DNA of 23,897 nucleotides from positions 1-23,897 of IMG/VR virus record IMGVR_UViG_3300037493_002653; one strand, 5' to 3'. The stretch is from a virus. Below, in pieces: positions 7,692 to 19,834 of the stretch (the first letter of the stretch is position 1; every line of letters begins with the position of its first letter). The notes beneath the pieces were generated by a model. That model made no database searches. It was not told the DNA's origin and saw only the letters and a program-made list of their open reading frames with translations. The position numbers and the translations under genes are program-made.

Positions 7692-7891
7692 GGTCGTATG
7701 CGCACTTGCTGCGGCTTGTTCGGTTATACCGCCGAATCGGGGTGCGTAACTCTACACATCGAAGGTGAGAGAAACCGCTAAAGGACCATGACCGATCCAT
7801 TCTTACAGGTTCATTACGCCTGTATGCTTGCGTCTGGGCTTGGAACCAGAACTGCCGCATTACACCGCCGAAGCGGTGTCCTCTGCGAGGG
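7692..7891. other. Spacer with a TTCG-loop hairpin
   Basis: On the minus strand ACACCGC-TTCG-GCGGTGT (7862-7879) is a seven-base perfect stem with the extra-stable UUCG tetraloop, 13 bases after the stop of the gene at 7892. TACAGG-TTCATTACG-CCTGTA (7804-7824) is a second stem. No T-run follows either, so a terminator role is possible but not certain. Confidence 0.55.
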
Positions 7892-14056: not shown

Positions 14057-14081
14057 AATTTAGAATAATTTTTATTGACAT

Positions 14082-14143
14082 ATGCTGTTATTTAGGCAAA
14101 GTCATCTCGAACTCCTGAGATGCAAAGTTCTAAATAACAGCAT
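14082..14143 (+). promoter_or_regulatory. Nested inverted repeat before the capsid gene
   Basis: ATGCTGTTATTTAG (14082-14095) and CTAAATAACAGCAT (14130-14143) are a perfect 14-bp inverted repeat. Between them CATCTC and GAGATG (14103-14122) form an inner hairpin, flanked on each side by a CAAAGT-containing 7-mer. TTTTCG follows. It could be a terminator, an mRNA-stabilising or processing structure, or a protein-binding cruciform. Confidence 0.75.
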
Positions 14144-14187
14144 TTTCGTTTGCTCGGTCGTTATCCGTTCTAACTAATTACCAACTC

Positions 14188-14213
14188 TTCTGAAATACTC
14201 AGAAAGATTTTTT
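14188..14213 (+). terminator. Weak intrinsic terminator or attenuator before capsid gene
   Basis: TTCTGA-AATAC-TCAGAA is followed by AGATTTTTT. The stem is short and AT-rich, so it would end only part of the transcripts arriving from the scaffold gene; the capsid gene starts 30 bases later, presumably from its own promoter. Confidence 0.45.
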
Positions 14214-14243: not shown

Positions 14244-15641
14244 ATGGCTAACGAAATTAATGACTATCTTGTTCGGGAAACTGGACGTATCGCACCTGAC
14301 ATCAATCAAAAGATGAAGGCAAAAATGACTCCATGGCTTTCGCTATTTGCGCGTGAAGCATGGCAAGAGGGAATGGGAGTAACAGGCAAAACTTTTGTCT
14401 GGGATCGCGTTCAACTGAAAGAAGCTGCTAAGGATTGGGCTAATATGTCCGATGCTCCTGATGTGGCTAACGGAGGCAGTTGCGTTCCACCTGCTGATGA
14501 AGTGATCTTCACGCAACAAAACCGTGAATACAATTTGCAACAAAAGGCAATTTGGGGTCCACGTATTTGCGTTAACAACCTGCGTTACACGTTTATGCGT
14601 AATGAGCAGATCAATGCTACGATTAAAGCTCTTGCTGACCAAGCCCGTGAAACCTGGATTACTCGCTATCGTAGTGAGTATACTCGTATCGCTGGCAACA
14701 AAGCACTTGCCAACTCCAGCTTTGCTCTGAACAACGACGGTTATAATAGCTTCGAGTTCCCAAGTCCTGGCGGCTCGCCAGCTGTGTCTGTATTGACCAG
14801 TGGCTTGCTTGACATGTGCTATGAATATCTAAATCATCAAGGTGCTCAAGAAGGATCTCTTGGCATGGCCGAGACTCTTCCTGTGTATGGTCTAATTACT
14901 TCGGCTCGTAACTCGCGTAATGTTATTCGTGAGAATGCCAAAATCCGTGAGGACTTCCGTTACAGCAAGGAGAACGAGAAGCTTCTTGGGCCTTTGGGCA
15001 TCAAACTTCAATACAATGGCTTTAGCCATTTGATTGACGACAAGCTTCCTCGTTGGAACTGGCAAGCCGCTACTGCGGCTACTGGCGCTGTGACGGGCTC
15101 TGGAGCAACCAGAACACTGACTCTTAGTGCGTCTTCTGCTCTTACTGTTGGTTCTCTTGTGTATATCAGCACAAACATGTATATTGTCACCGTTGTTACT
15201 AGCGGCACGGTTTATACGGTGGTTAGCGAGACCCTTGAAGCGCCAACAAACATCACTGCGACTGTTTACTCTGCATGGGTATCTGTTCCTGAGTATGTCA
15301 TTTCTAGTGGAGTTGAAATCCCTAACCCTGCTTGGTTGCAAGCTGGCTACGAGGATGTCTATATCTTCCATCAAAAAGCAGCTACGTGCTTGATTCCAAA
15401 ACCAATTACTGCTGTAGGTGGTGCGAAATTCGATCCAGTAAACTACGCTGGTGAGTTTTCATGGAAAAACTACACTGATGAATTGCTGAATCCTGATGGC
15501 ACTATTGGCCGTTTCCGTGGCGTTCTGTCGTCTGGCACACGTGCAGACAATCCTGAATACGCTATTGTAATGCGCGTCAAGTCTTGCCCAAATGCTTTTG
15601 GCTTGATTACTGACTGCACCACGCTTGGTTCGCCAGCGTAA
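14244..15641 (+). CDS. Major capsid protein, 465 aa
   Basis: The gene follows the scaffold and is bracketed by its own control structures, as expected for the most abundant virion protein. The N-terminus (EINDYLVRETGRIAPDINQK) and the conserved-looking core (VWDRVQLKEAAKDWANMSDA and YTFMRNEQINATIKALADQA) fit a capsid subunit in the helix-and-loop style of HK97-type proteins. At about residues 275-345 there is a threonine/serine/valine-rich insert (GATRTLTLSASSALTVGSLV onward), which looks like an added beta-sandwich domain exposed on the capsid surface. No Shine-Dalgarno site precedes the ATG; the leader is A/C/T-rich (AACAATTAACTACCTACTTAT). The capsid assignment is firm from context; the fold is inferred. 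Confidence 0.87.
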   Translation: MANEINDYLVRETGRIAPDINQKMKAKMTPWLSLFAREAWQEGMGVTGKTFVWDRVQLKEAAKDWANMSDAPDVANGGSCVPPADEVIFTQQNREYNLQQKAIWGPRICVNNLRYTFMRNEQINATIKALADQARETWITRYRSEYTRIAGNKALANSSFALNNDGYNSFEFPSPGGSPAVSVLTSGLLDMCYEYLNHQGAQEGSLGMAETLPVYGLITSARNSRNVIRENAKIREDFRYSKENEKLLGPLGIKLQYNGFSHLIDDKLPRWNWQAATAATGAVTGSGATRTLTLSASSALTVGSLVYISTNMYIVTVVTSGTVYTVVSETLEAPTNITATVYSAWVSVPEYVISSGVEIPNPAWLQAGYEDVYIFHQKAATCLIPKPITAVGGAKFDPVNYAGEFSWKNYTDELLNPDGTIGRFRGVLSSGTRADNPEYAIVMRVKSCPNAFGLITDCTTLGSPA

Positions 15642-15648
15642 CTTGTTT

Positions 15649-15692
15649 ATCCCCCTGTCTTGGAATACGCCGAGATGGGGGGATTCTCTTTT
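15649..15692 (+). terminator. Strong terminator after the capsid gene
   Basis: ATCCCCC-TGTCTTGG pairs with CCGAGATG-GGGGGAT (15 positions, some G-U) around a six-base loop, followed by TCTCTTTT. It starts eight bases after the capsid stop codon and so ends the capsid transcript, while partial read-through would supply the genes downstream. Confidence 0.9.
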
Positions 15693-16144: not shown

Positions 16145-17464
16145 ATGCCAAAAGTAAATTTATCTGAAAACATGTCAAAACTCCTGAAAAGCCTTTCAGG
16201 TGGTATTCTTGACTTTTTTAATGAAAGCAAAATTCAAGAAGCACCTATTGGAGGCATTCGCCAAGTGTGCATTGCTGACTATAAAAAAGATTGGTCATTA
16301 GGATCAAATTACTATCGTGGTCAATCAAATTCCGAAGTCATTAGGCTTACTGATATGCAGTTTTACGCACCAACAACCACTGATGACGAAACAAAAGGTT
16401 TCGCTGCGGGAAGTTGGTGGGTTCTGGAGAACGGCAATATGTATCAATGCTATGACGCTACTGCAAGCGCAGCCGTATGGGATATTATTTCGACATCTGT
16501 CCCAGACCCAACTACAGTAAGTGGAGGCGGGGAATTTGACTTTAATTTTTCTGGAACAATTCCCACTAATTGGAAGGTCAGCAATACTAATATTACAAAC
16601 TTGCATATCGGTAGCACTGTTACGACTATTGGCGATTACGCATTTTTAAGTTGTTCCAACCTAGTTGGAGGTCTTGTTATTCCAAATAATGTGAAATCTA
16701 TCAACGCAGGTGCATTTAGCAACTGCATTGGCTTAACTTCACTCGACCTTGGCACATCGGTTACTAGCATTGGTGATTCAGCATTTGCTTATTGCAGTGT
16801 TATGTCAGGTGATCTAATCATTCCTAATTCAGTTACAAGTATTGCAAACTCGGCGTTCAACACTTGCACTAGTTTTATGGGTACGCTCAGTATTGGCACA
16901 TCGGTTACTAGTATTGGCGATACAGCGTTTTATATATGCAATTTTACAAACAACTTAATTATACCTGATTTAGTTACACATATTGGTTTTGAGGCGTTTT
17001 ACCAATGTGGGTTTACGGGAACCTTAACTATTGGAGCCACTGTTGACACTATTTCTGCTAACGCATTTTATGGATGCCAATTCACAGGCGACTTAATCAT
17101 TCCAGATTCAGTTACAAGTATTGGTGCTTCTGCATTTTATGGATGTGGATTTAATGATAATTTGACTATTGGGAATTATGTAGGTTTGACTATTGGTAAC
17201 AACGCATTTGAAGATTGCGCCAATCTTGACGGAGTCCTAAACATAGGAAGCGGCGTTACAAGTATTGGTGATTATGCGTTTGGTGGATTAACTTTACTAA
17301 CTGCCATTAACTGCTACGCCGTAGTTGCACCCACGCTTGGAACTAGCGTATTCAATAACACGATGCTCGCCGACATTCACGTTCCAACTAGCTCTTATGC
17401 TAGTTATAATGCCACCAACTCGAATGGCACCTATGGAGGATTAACAATAGTCGCCGATTTATAA
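16145..17464 (+). CDS. Receptor-binding fibre with BspA-type leucine-rich repeats, 439 aa
   Basis: Residues 1-130 form a unique N-terminal part (with the tryptophan/glycine stretch GFAAGSWWVLENGNMYQCYD) that probably attaches to the virion. From about residue 145 onward come roughly ten repeats of about 23 residues of the BspA/Treponema type (LRR_5), with units such as VTSIGDSAFAYCSVMSGDLI followed by IPNSV. These build a curved solenoid used by bacteria to bind surfaces and proteins. The last 60 residues (ending in TYGGLTIVADL) form the cap typical of such repeats. In a phage this would be a host-recognition or adhesion fibre. Repeats differ at the exposed positions, as expected for binding. 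Confidence 0.85.
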   Translation: MPKVNLSENMSKLLKSLSGGILDFFNESKIQEAPIGGIRQVCIADYKKDWSLGSNYYRGQSNSEVIRLTDMQFYAPTTTDDETKGFAAGSWWVLENGNMYQCYDATASAAVWDIISTSVPDPTTVSGGGEFDFNFSGTIPTNWKVSNTNITNLHIGSTVTTIGDYAFLSCSNLVGGLVIPNNVKSINAGAFSNCIGLTSLDLGTSVTSIGDSAFAYCSVMSGDLIIPNSVTSIANSAFNTCTSFMGTLSIGTSVTSIGDTAFYICNFTNNLIIPDLVTHIGFEAFYQCGFTGTLTIGATVDTISANAFYGCQFTGDLIIPDSVTSIGASAFYGCGFNDNLTIGNYVGLTIGNNAFEDCANLDGVLNIGSGVTSIGDYAFGGLTLLTAINCYAVVAPTLGTSVFNNTMLADIHVPTSSYASYNATNSNGTYGGLTIVADL

Positions 17465-17972: not shown

Positions 17973-18332
17973 ATGAGTGAATATGCAGCTACATACAATT
18001 TGCAGGGAATCATTCGTGATGATAGCTGGAGAGGTATTCCAGTTATCCAAATTATTGTAAATGCAAGTCCTCCAGCAGTTCCTGTTTCAAGTGCTGAAAT
18101 GATCTTTAAAAAGAAAAGTAAGCAAAGCACTATTGATTTAATTCTTACAAGTTCTGGAGCTTCTCCAACAATTATTATTGAAGATGATGAAACATGGGAA
18201 ATGAGTATTCCTAGAATTATAGATTTCCCTTTGTCTACTGGAGTATGGCATTACGTCTTCAAGACTATTGATGCTGATGGATTCAAGAGATCATATTTTG
18301 GTGGAACAATAACATTAACTGATGAGCCATGA
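17973..18332 (+). CDS. Baseplate or fibre-adaptor beta-sandwich protein, 119 aa
   Basis: The sequence is a run of beta strands: YNLQGIIRDDSWRGIPVIQI, an SAEMIFKKKSK strand, WEMSIPRIIDFPLSTGVWHY and a final KRSYFGGTITLTDEP. This order, with a D-x-W/F-x-G start, a basic MxxKxK strand, a WxYx(I/V) strand and a GTITLT end, is the pattern of small N-terminal domains that link fibres to the baseplate in many phages (BppU_N-like). Its stop overlaps the start of the collagen-stalk fibre by four bases (ATGA), which supports joint assembly with it. Confidence 0.65.
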   Translation: MSEYAATYNLQGIIRDDSWRGIPVIQIIVNASPPAVPVSSAEMIFKKKSKQSTIDLILTSSGASPTIIIEDDETWEMSIPRIIDFPLSTGVWHYVFKTIDADGFKRSYFGGTITLTDEP

Positions 18333-19834
18333 GTGATGAAGTAATAGTAACAATAACAGAAATAGCAGAACAAGCTATTGTTGAGCTTACAGAAGTATCT
18401 GAAAGTGTTGTTGTTGTTATACAAGAGGCTGCAAATGGAGAGCCTGGACCAATTGGTCCTACTGGAGCGAACGGAACAAACGGAACAAACGGAACAAATG
18501 GCACAAATGGCACGAACGGCACAAACGGCACTAATGGCACTAATGGCGGGTCAGTCAGCGCATGGAATTATAAAGCCAAGACCAATGCAACCAGCGGCTA
18601 CCCGACCAACGGCCACCTACTTTGGAATAACGCCACACAGACAAGCGCAACTAGCATACTTGTCTCACACCTAACCGATGACGACACCGACATTGAGTTG
18701 TTCCTTTCCTTTTTCGTCATCAACCAAAAAATCTTTATACAGAATCGGGATGACTCAAGCCAAAATCAAGTCTGGCAAATAACTGGAACGCCAACGGTGA
18801 CGGGGGCGAATACTAGCACAGCATACTACACTTTTCCCGTGACCTTGGTATCATCGGCGGGTGCGGCATTTACAAACAACCATTCTATTTTATTCGGTCA
18901 AATCGTAGTTGCTACAAACTCAGTGACAAGCGCAACGACCAGCAATGGGACTTGTGATCTTGATATCGAATCTTTGACGCTGAATACATGCAATAGCGAT
19001 TTTATATTTTTAGCTGACGGAGCTTATGACATCGGAACAGGAAGTAATTATGTAAGGACGGCGTATATAAACACAGTTTTTTCTGGAGCGTTGACAGTTG
19101 GATACAACTCAAGTGGTTCATATTTGGGTCAAATTATAATTTACTCAGACACAGCGGGTTCCAGCACGACTCTCAATCCAACAACTGGCGGGAGTGGTTT
19201 ACTAACGCTACCATCTGGCACTGGCACTCTCGCGCTAACGAGCGACATCACAGTCACTCCTACTAACACTGTCACCCTCACCAACAAAACGCTGACCAGT
19301 CCAGCGATCAACTCTGCGACCATTGGCACGGCGGCGACATTTAACGCGACGACCTACACGTTCGGGGCGGGGGCGGCGGCTGCACTAAACACCGCACTTG
19401 GAACAACTCGAGTTATGCGGACCACGCTTGCAACTCGGACAAGTGGGACAATGACCGTAGATGACACGCTTGTTTTGCCAGTTGTAAGCGGCGTAACTTA
19501 TCGGGTGCGCGTTCACTCTCTAACGAAAAACAGCACGGCGACTGTCGGAATGGTTTTACGCATAGACCACCCAGGCATCACGGCAAGCGGAAGCGATACC
19601 GTCGGACACCTGATGAACGGCGGCGGTAATGCTGGAATCACACCAAGCACGTCAACGTCTCTGACAAATAGCGTTAACCAAAACGGGCAGAATTTATCGA
19701 CAATAACAGAGGTAATTTTAACGCCAAGCGCATCGGGCGACGTAAAAGTAATGTGGGCGGCGCGCGTGCCGGCGGGTGTCGAAACCGCAGGATTAAACAT
19801 CGGAAGCTATTTGGAAGTCATCAAAATATCATAA
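18329..19834 (+). CDS. Tail fibre with collagen-like stalk, 501 aa
   Basis: The N-terminus (MSDEVIVTITEIAEQAIVEL) is beta-rich and probably binds the virion. Residues 37-74 are Gly-X-Y triplets: GEP, GPI, GPT, GAN and eight GTN, then GG. Such collagen-like stretches make a trimeric rod in phage fibres. The remaining 420 residues are threonine/serine/glycine-rich, with typical trimeric-fibre segments (LPSGTGTLALTSDI and TLTNKTLTSPAINSATIG), and end in a compact beta tip domain (SASGDVKVMWAARVPAG onward). No enzymatic motif is visible. It follows the small adaptor gene and is coupled to it by ATGA overlap. Confidence 0.85.
   Translation: MSDEVIVTITEIAEQAIVELTEVSESVVVVIQEAANGEPGPIGPTGANGTNGTNGTNGTNGTNGTNGTNGTNGGSVSAWNYKAKTNATSGYPTNGHLLWNNATQTSATSILVSHLTDDDTDIELFLSFFVINQKIFIQNRDDSSQNQVWQITGTPTVTGANTSTAYYTFPVTLVSSAGAAFTNNHSILFGQIVVATNSVTSATTSNGTCDLDIESLTLNTCNSDFIFLADGAYDIGTGSNYVRTAYINTVFSGALTVGYNSSGSYLGQIIIYSDTAGSSTTLNPTTGGSGLLTLPSGTGTLALTSDITVTPTNTVTLTNKTLTSPAINSATIGTAATFNATTYTFGAGAAAALNTALGTTRVMRTTLATRTSGTMTVDDTLVLPVVSGVTYRVRVHSLTKNSTATVGMVLRIDHPGITASGSDTVGHLMNGGGNAGITPSTSTSLTNSVNQNGQNLSTITEVILTPSASGDVKVMWAARVPAGVETAGLNIGSYLEVIKIS
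18473..18544 (+). repeat. Eight tandem 9-bp repeats coding Gly-Thr-Asn
   Basis: The first units are identical (GGAACAAAC) and later ones vary in third positions (GGCACAAAT, GGCACTAAT). Slippage would change stalk length in frame. The antisense frame over this tract is an artefact. Confidence 0.9.

Follow-up and report, generated by a model that had tools for sequence, protein, structure and literature searches.

The window analysed here (the whole 23,897-nucleotide stretch of IMG/VR record IMGVR_UViG_3300037493_002653) has a gene order by size – terminase, portal, scaffold, coat – that fits a P22-like phage. A scaffold-like gene of 393 residues precedes a capsid-like gene of 465 residues, and in phages far more capsid than scaffold protein is needed from such adjacent genes. 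None of the terminase-, portal-, scaffold- and coat-size genes was recognised by PHROGs, Pfam or NCBIfam, PHROGs searches with 18 capsid-like proteins gave four families, for each of which one of the proteins matched (E 0.04-0.07), and a solved-structure profile search gave one unrelated match (E 0.54). The predicted structure of the capsid-like protein is of low confidence (mean pLDDT 48.6, pTM 0.50), and Foldseek matched it four times at E<=0.001, each time to phage P22 coat protein; VIA-align returned a mixed list, which was discounted, headed by a portal-tail chain, with ATP synthase chains at about residues 273-348 and with the Moo19 and N4 capsids matched in part. The neighbouring genes fit scaffold and capsid.

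Between these genes lies a perfect inverted repeat, P1, with arms ATGCTGTTATTTAG and CTAAATAACAGCAT that are complementary at 14/14 positions and separated by 34 nt (Table 1). It is the sole perfect inverted repeat of at least 12 bp with a gap of at most 60 nt in the window; dinucleotide shuffles contain a mean of 0.025 such repeats, and 0/40 shuffles has one of at least 14 bp. The RNA fold of 14076-14155 reaches -26.4 kcal/mol on the plus strand and -26.0 kcal/mol on the minus strand (z -5.6 and -4.9 relative to shuffled controls), and the repeat also folds as DNA. A previous sequence-only reading had reported these 14-bp arms and an inner 6-bp hairpin, CATCTC/GAGATG, and both are present. 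Two other identities were considered for the repeat and rejected: in the window a short reading frame begins with the ATG at 14082, yet the same ATG in the relative L184 runs into a stop and is missing from other clades (by eye), and no tRNA-like element was found.

Table 1. Coordinates of the leader and its surroundings in the window
Feature	Position	Strand	Basis and remarks
TTGACA, -35-like hexamer	14075..14080	+	Fixed distance from GAAC; with G14109 as +1, G14095 is at -14 and A14098 at -11
P1 left arm	14082..14095	+	Repeat and covariation; within promoter-like spacer
CAAAGT, weak -10-like hexamer	14097..14102	+	16-nt spacer, 6 nt to G14109; T at -7 not conserved in relatives
CATCTC, left half of inner hairpin	14103..14108	+	Partner GAGATG at 14117-14122; predicted in read-through form only
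P3 hairpin GAACT/AGTTC	14109..14130 (14109-14113 with 14126-14130)	+	Covariation; G14109 is the proposed +1
Pseudoknot loop strand GAGATGC, in P3 loop	14117..14123	+	Covariation; 7/7 pairs in window, 2 of them G-U
P1 right arm	14130..14143	+	Repeat and covariation
Pseudoknot downstream strand GCATTTT	14140..14146	+	Covariation; 14140-14143 common to P1 right arm
Conserved tail, UCGnnCGUUAUCnGUYCUAR	14151..14173	+	21-mer match and alignments
P4 hairpin followed by six T, terminator-like	14186..14213	+	T-rich-tailed hairpin of -5 kcal/mol or better in 20/24 leaders, counted without a shuffled control
Capsid-like gene, served by the leader	14244..15641	+	465 residues; model and Foldseek
GC-rich terminator-like hairpin, 3' of capsid-like gene	15649..15684	+	Such hairpins also in 11/11 relatives read by eye

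The repeat is part of a conserved element of approximately 105 nt. Contigs that carry it have a single copy, placed between the scaffold-like and the capsid-like gene, and the phage clade concerned has been met in IMG/VR only. Searching that collection with the capsid returned 7, 22 and then 29 loci, with capsid identity to the window down to about 43%, and the element stands before the capsid-like gene in 29/29 of these capsid-selected loci. A covariance model, R1, detects a single copy per source in 36 sources and a single copy per record in 18/18 whole records of 16 to 80 kb; no further copies were found in the window. An upstream scaffold-like frame resembling that of the window is present in 23 of the 24 distinct leaders, with L180 having a different, 68-residue frame. 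The position at the scaffold/capsid boundary given by the sequence-only reading is thus one at which the element is conserved and the neighbours fit, although the capsid label itself comes from a low-confidence model only. A search of Rfam gave no match to the element at gathering score (best E 1.3 among 4227 families), on which ground a further ribozyme or a known riboswitch was rejected, and no relatives of the element were found among the GenBank phages searched or confirmed among the cellular genomes searched. A loose pattern scan returned nearly all chance matches among those listed, and R1 applied to 100 such loci gave one weak match (E 0.24). Searches of open-licence PubMed Central papers found no description of the element or of the arrangement.

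Covariation was examined in alignment A5, which holds 14 of the 24 leaders and leaves out the window's own group of six (in which P1 has another register), the near copy L191, L164, and the P1-less leaders L163 and L169, the last two having been missed by regular expressions and placed in the leader set by hand. Permutation tests used 17 representatives of the 24 leaders, which cover all groups omitted from A5 except near copies. P1 in A5 comprises 12 column pairs with 88.1% of cells paired and 28 double changes (0/500 shuffles), and its summed energy over the 17 representatives is -394.9 against -215.3 (sd 18.2) for permuted arms, about ten standard deviations below (0/20000 permutations). 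In 21 of the 23 leaders compared (L192 left out), no more than 2 non-cognate arms pair as well as the cognate one. The compensatory changes that had been proposed as a check in related phages therefore exist in P1: the arm sequence changes from clade to clade while pairing is kept, and G-U pairs are in use.

This pattern bears on what kind of element P1 could be. A DNA-level element, either a cruciform or a dimeric protein site, agrees with the repeat being perfect and folding as DNA too, but arm sequence that is almost free as long as pairing is kept, together with the G-U pairs, points to RNA, and we regard such an element as very improbable; of the RNA element and protein-binding cruciform put forward earlier, it is the RNA role that is better supported. 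An intrinsic terminator for scaffold transcripts has about the same slight standing. In the window and the leaders closest to it the stem does run into a T-rich stretch, but other clades have CTCGG or similar there, with the T-run missing outside the window's group, and P1 has neither the GC-rich stem (4/14 pairs are G-C) nor the short loop of an intrinsic terminator and was not flagged by a terminator scan of the window with a loop limit of 8. The earlier remark that it is unlike a usual terminator agrees with this.

The conserved core of the element is a second structure, hairpin P3 (GAACnn/nnGUUC), which is found in all clades (as GUCCC/GGGGAC in L163) and has 97.2% of cells paired over the 24 leaders, with 16 double changes (0/500 shuffles). 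Its loop pairs with a strand starting about 10 nt after GUUC to give a predicted pseudoknot, whose strands differ between clades: GAGAUGC/GCAUUUU in the window, AAUCAGG/CCUGAUU in L176, AACUAAG/CUUAGUU in L181, and GACCGGG/CCCGGUU in L165. In a fixed register 109/119 pairs form, against 88.6 (sd 3.0) in permuted sets (0/20000), and P3 and the pseudoknot together have 94.0% of cells paired in A5 with 25 double changes (0/500 shuffles), slid controls reaching at most 58.8%. By energy, 7/23 non-cognate strands are as good as the window's own, and energy alone makes the pseudoknots of L164, L169, L177 and L189 no better than most non-cognate pairings; P3 is also not always first in minimum free energy folding of the short RNA, using a program that cannot draw pseudoknots. 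The geometry is presumably that of an ordinary H-type pseudoknot with short loops one and two and an A-rich loop three, which would explain the conserved UAAA. Judged by covariation, P1, P3 and the pseudoknot are all well supported as predicted structures.

The nested near-symmetry that the sequence-only reading ascribed to the whole element is not this core, in which the P3 loop is instead predicted to be pseudoknotted to the right-arm region. The CAAAGT that it noted in both connectors is present in the window, but is changed within the window's six-member group, to TAATTG, CAATTG or TTATTTG on the left and to GCATGGTT or GCAAAGTT on the right, and the symmetry looks like a coincidence. The span then given for the element, 14082-14143, includes P1, but the structure formed by P3 and the pseudoknot had been missed, as had 21 conserved nucleotides beyond it (14152-14172). 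This exact 21-mer occurs in 16 IMG/VR stretches and is identical between phages with capsids about 45% alike. The tail, although strongly conserved, plays no part in the reading favoured below. It may form a small hairpin, with CGG/CCG in the window and other pairs in L163, L164 and L169 (by eye), and GCUC/GAG pairing that might connect it to P4 was also noticed by eye.

P1 and the pseudoknot use the same downstream strand (A5 columns 74-80 in both, with 14140-14143 common in the window) and are therefore mutually exclusive, and the GAGATG of the inner stem occupies the pseudoknot loop strand in the window. Competition of a spacer strand and a hairpin loop for one RNA strand would let the fold depend on where transcription originates.

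The sequence immediately upstream of P3 has promoter-like geometry. In the window TTGACA is followed by 16 nt, CAAAGT, 6 nt and G14109, and, counted from the G of GAAC as +1, TTGAC occupies -35 to -31 with 14-15 of 19 representatives agreeing at each base, G-14 and A-11 are each present in 18/19, and C-1 in 16/19. A -35 hexamer match of at least 5/6 at the fixed place is found in 13/19 clade representatives, where shuffling gives 0.1 on average, and the TTGAC-29-GAAC spacing varies by no more than one base, although the helices shift position from clade to clade. A sigma70-type -35 with a 16-18 nt spacer is recognisable in those 13 and also, with a spacer of 16 nt, in the window and L181, but not in L164-L166, which have no TTGAC; L171 has TTGCC, and L164 and L166 have TG at -15/-14. 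The -10 hexamer matches at 4/6 or better in just 6/19 representatives, and T-7 is not conserved. These positions are judged by general sigma70 coordinates from E. coli. No TTGAC was seen in the other plus-strand intergenic regions of the window, so that no second promoter of the same type lends support, and no Shine-Dalgarno-like stretch is evident by eye before the capsid-like start. The conserved TTGAC, G-14 and A-11 mark a putative capsid promoter. The L176 clade has an extra hairpin, GGGAATttcaacATTCCC and variants, just upstream of TTGAC (between the scaffold stop and TTGAC), with changes on both sides.

We give even chances to a compound element that provides the capsid gene with both promoter and leader, the transcript starting with the pseudoknot and P1 forming only in read-through RNA. 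The promoter would start the transcript at G14109, and the left arm of P1, since it sits in the promoter-like spacer upstream of +1, looks to be absent from locally started RNA. The 5' end of that RNA would be base-paired in P3, with the loop pairing to 14140-14146 as an H-type pseudoknot, and the pseudoknot might protect or regulate an abundant capsid message closed by the hairpin terminator 3' of the gene. Because the left arm lies upstream of +1, P1 would be confined to RNA reading through from the scaffold gene; there P1 would occupy the downstream strand that the pseudoknot needs, and CATCTC would engage the loop strand in the window, with the result that read-through and locally started RNAs would adopt different folds.

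Two leaders, L163 and L169, are natural knock-outs within this RNA family. They are the sole two with no P1 complementarity, and they alone among the 24 leaders have a GC-rich hairpin and T-run between the scaffold stop and GAAC, standing upstream of TTGAC. They also have the longest scaffold stop-GAAC gaps (179 and 139 nt, versus 54-97 or less elsewhere) but retain TTGAC and P3. The L163 pseudoknot has nine pairs with one bulge by eye (6/7 in the fixed register), and that of L169 is weak (5/7). A capsid tree places them as two independent changes. Since P1 is lost where an upstream terminator stands, its presence seems tied to possible read-through out of the scaffold gene, although two cases cannot prove a rule.

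Processing of the message, in which P1 and the inner stem would be cut by RNase III or a comparable enzyme, or would shield a 3' end, and so separate scaffold and capsid messages, as the sequence-only reading had envisaged, would also account for the absence of P1 where a terminator already separates the genes, and for a long conserved duplex exactly between both. It leaves the pseudoknot, the promoter-like spacing and the conserved tail unexplained, and we consider it unlikely. Rather unlikely, too, is an arrangement with no local promoter, in which the 105 nt lie within a long late transcript as a two-state switch between P1 and the pseudoknot, moved by a protein or ligand as in riboswitches or in operators of the T4 gene 32 kind, and controlling P4 termination or capsid translation. 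The mutually exclusive covarying helices, the conserved single-stranded tail and the terminator-like P4 behind it would all suit such a switch, but the TTGAC-29-GAAC spacing is fixed while the helices slide, and the strong terminators upstream in L163 and L169 mean that transcription must start, or be rescued, behind them.

The compound promoter and leader could be extended to a sensing of transcript origin, which we put forward as a doubtful addition: local RNA without the left arm would fold the pseudoknot and pass P4, whereas read-through RNA would fold P1 and be stopped at P4 or discarded. Both phages with an ordinary upstream terminator (L163 and L169) lack P1 as well as a T-tailed P4 that reaches -5 kcal/mol, the latter also being missing in L164 and L011. 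If origin sensing is true, one strand choice would separate capsid messages from read-through, replacing an upstream terminator.

Several known systems resemble parts of the proposed leader. Phage T4 gene 32 is regulated by a leader pseudoknot, called in 2010 perhaps the only viral pseudoknot in translational autoregulation (PMC3014915). The gene 32 leaders of T4, T2 and RB69 share with the present element an H-type pseudoknot in a phage gene leader upstream of the start codon (PMC3014915), which is predicted here by covariation. The element differs in serving a capsid gene, in its sequence, in having P4 between the pseudoknot and the start, and in a P1 that excludes the pseudoknot; the unstructured A+U-rich stretch that runs from the gene 32 pseudoknot over the ribosome binding site is not found, P4 being present in 20/24 leaders. 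RppH requires unpaired 5' nucleotides and is hindered by paired 5' ends (PMC3997798). The proposed capsid message would resemble those with 5'-terminal stabilising stem-loops (e.g. ompA, papA) in beginning with a paired base, but would differ in having a pseudoknot whose sequence is strongly conserved and an upstream strand that competes.

The put RNA of phage HK022 is folded as two hairpins. It acts on RNA polymerase by itself (PMC9378689) and, like the element here, is a structured RNA near a phage promoter with a terminator-like hairpin after it; the present candidate differs in having a pseudoknot and in preceding a late capsid gene rather than early genes. In conjugation operons, spurious transcription is reduced by antitermination combined with internal terminators (PMC8955417).

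Self-cleaving Twister and pistol ribozymes occur in the same phages, elsewhere and on the other strand, and the element matches no ribozyme model. Rfam identifies a Twister-P5 ribozyme at 7834-7887 on the minus strand of the window, approximately 0.7 kb upstream of the terminase-size gene and on the opposite strand to it. Among 17 records of close relatives, pistol is found in three and Twister-P5 in three above cut-off, with two weaker. The sites in relatives (L021 655-725 and L022 70-140, minus strand) are at the matching spot within the window's group, where one class of ribozyme seems to have been exchanged for another.

A short palindrome, TTTAGnnnnCTAAA, is present in five copies in the window (starting at 917, 2491, 6385, 12798 and 15690), mostly intergenic, where a simple count would expect about 0.1. 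It occurs in 16/18 scanned loci of relatives, often about 40 nt before the capsid start, and is possibly an operator or an RNA hairpin. Further downstream, 16145-17464 encodes a repeat-rich protein that matches two PHROGs of unknown function and is leucine-rich-repeat-like by eye, and 18329-19834 encodes a protein with a collagen-like stretch just below the Pfam cut-off.
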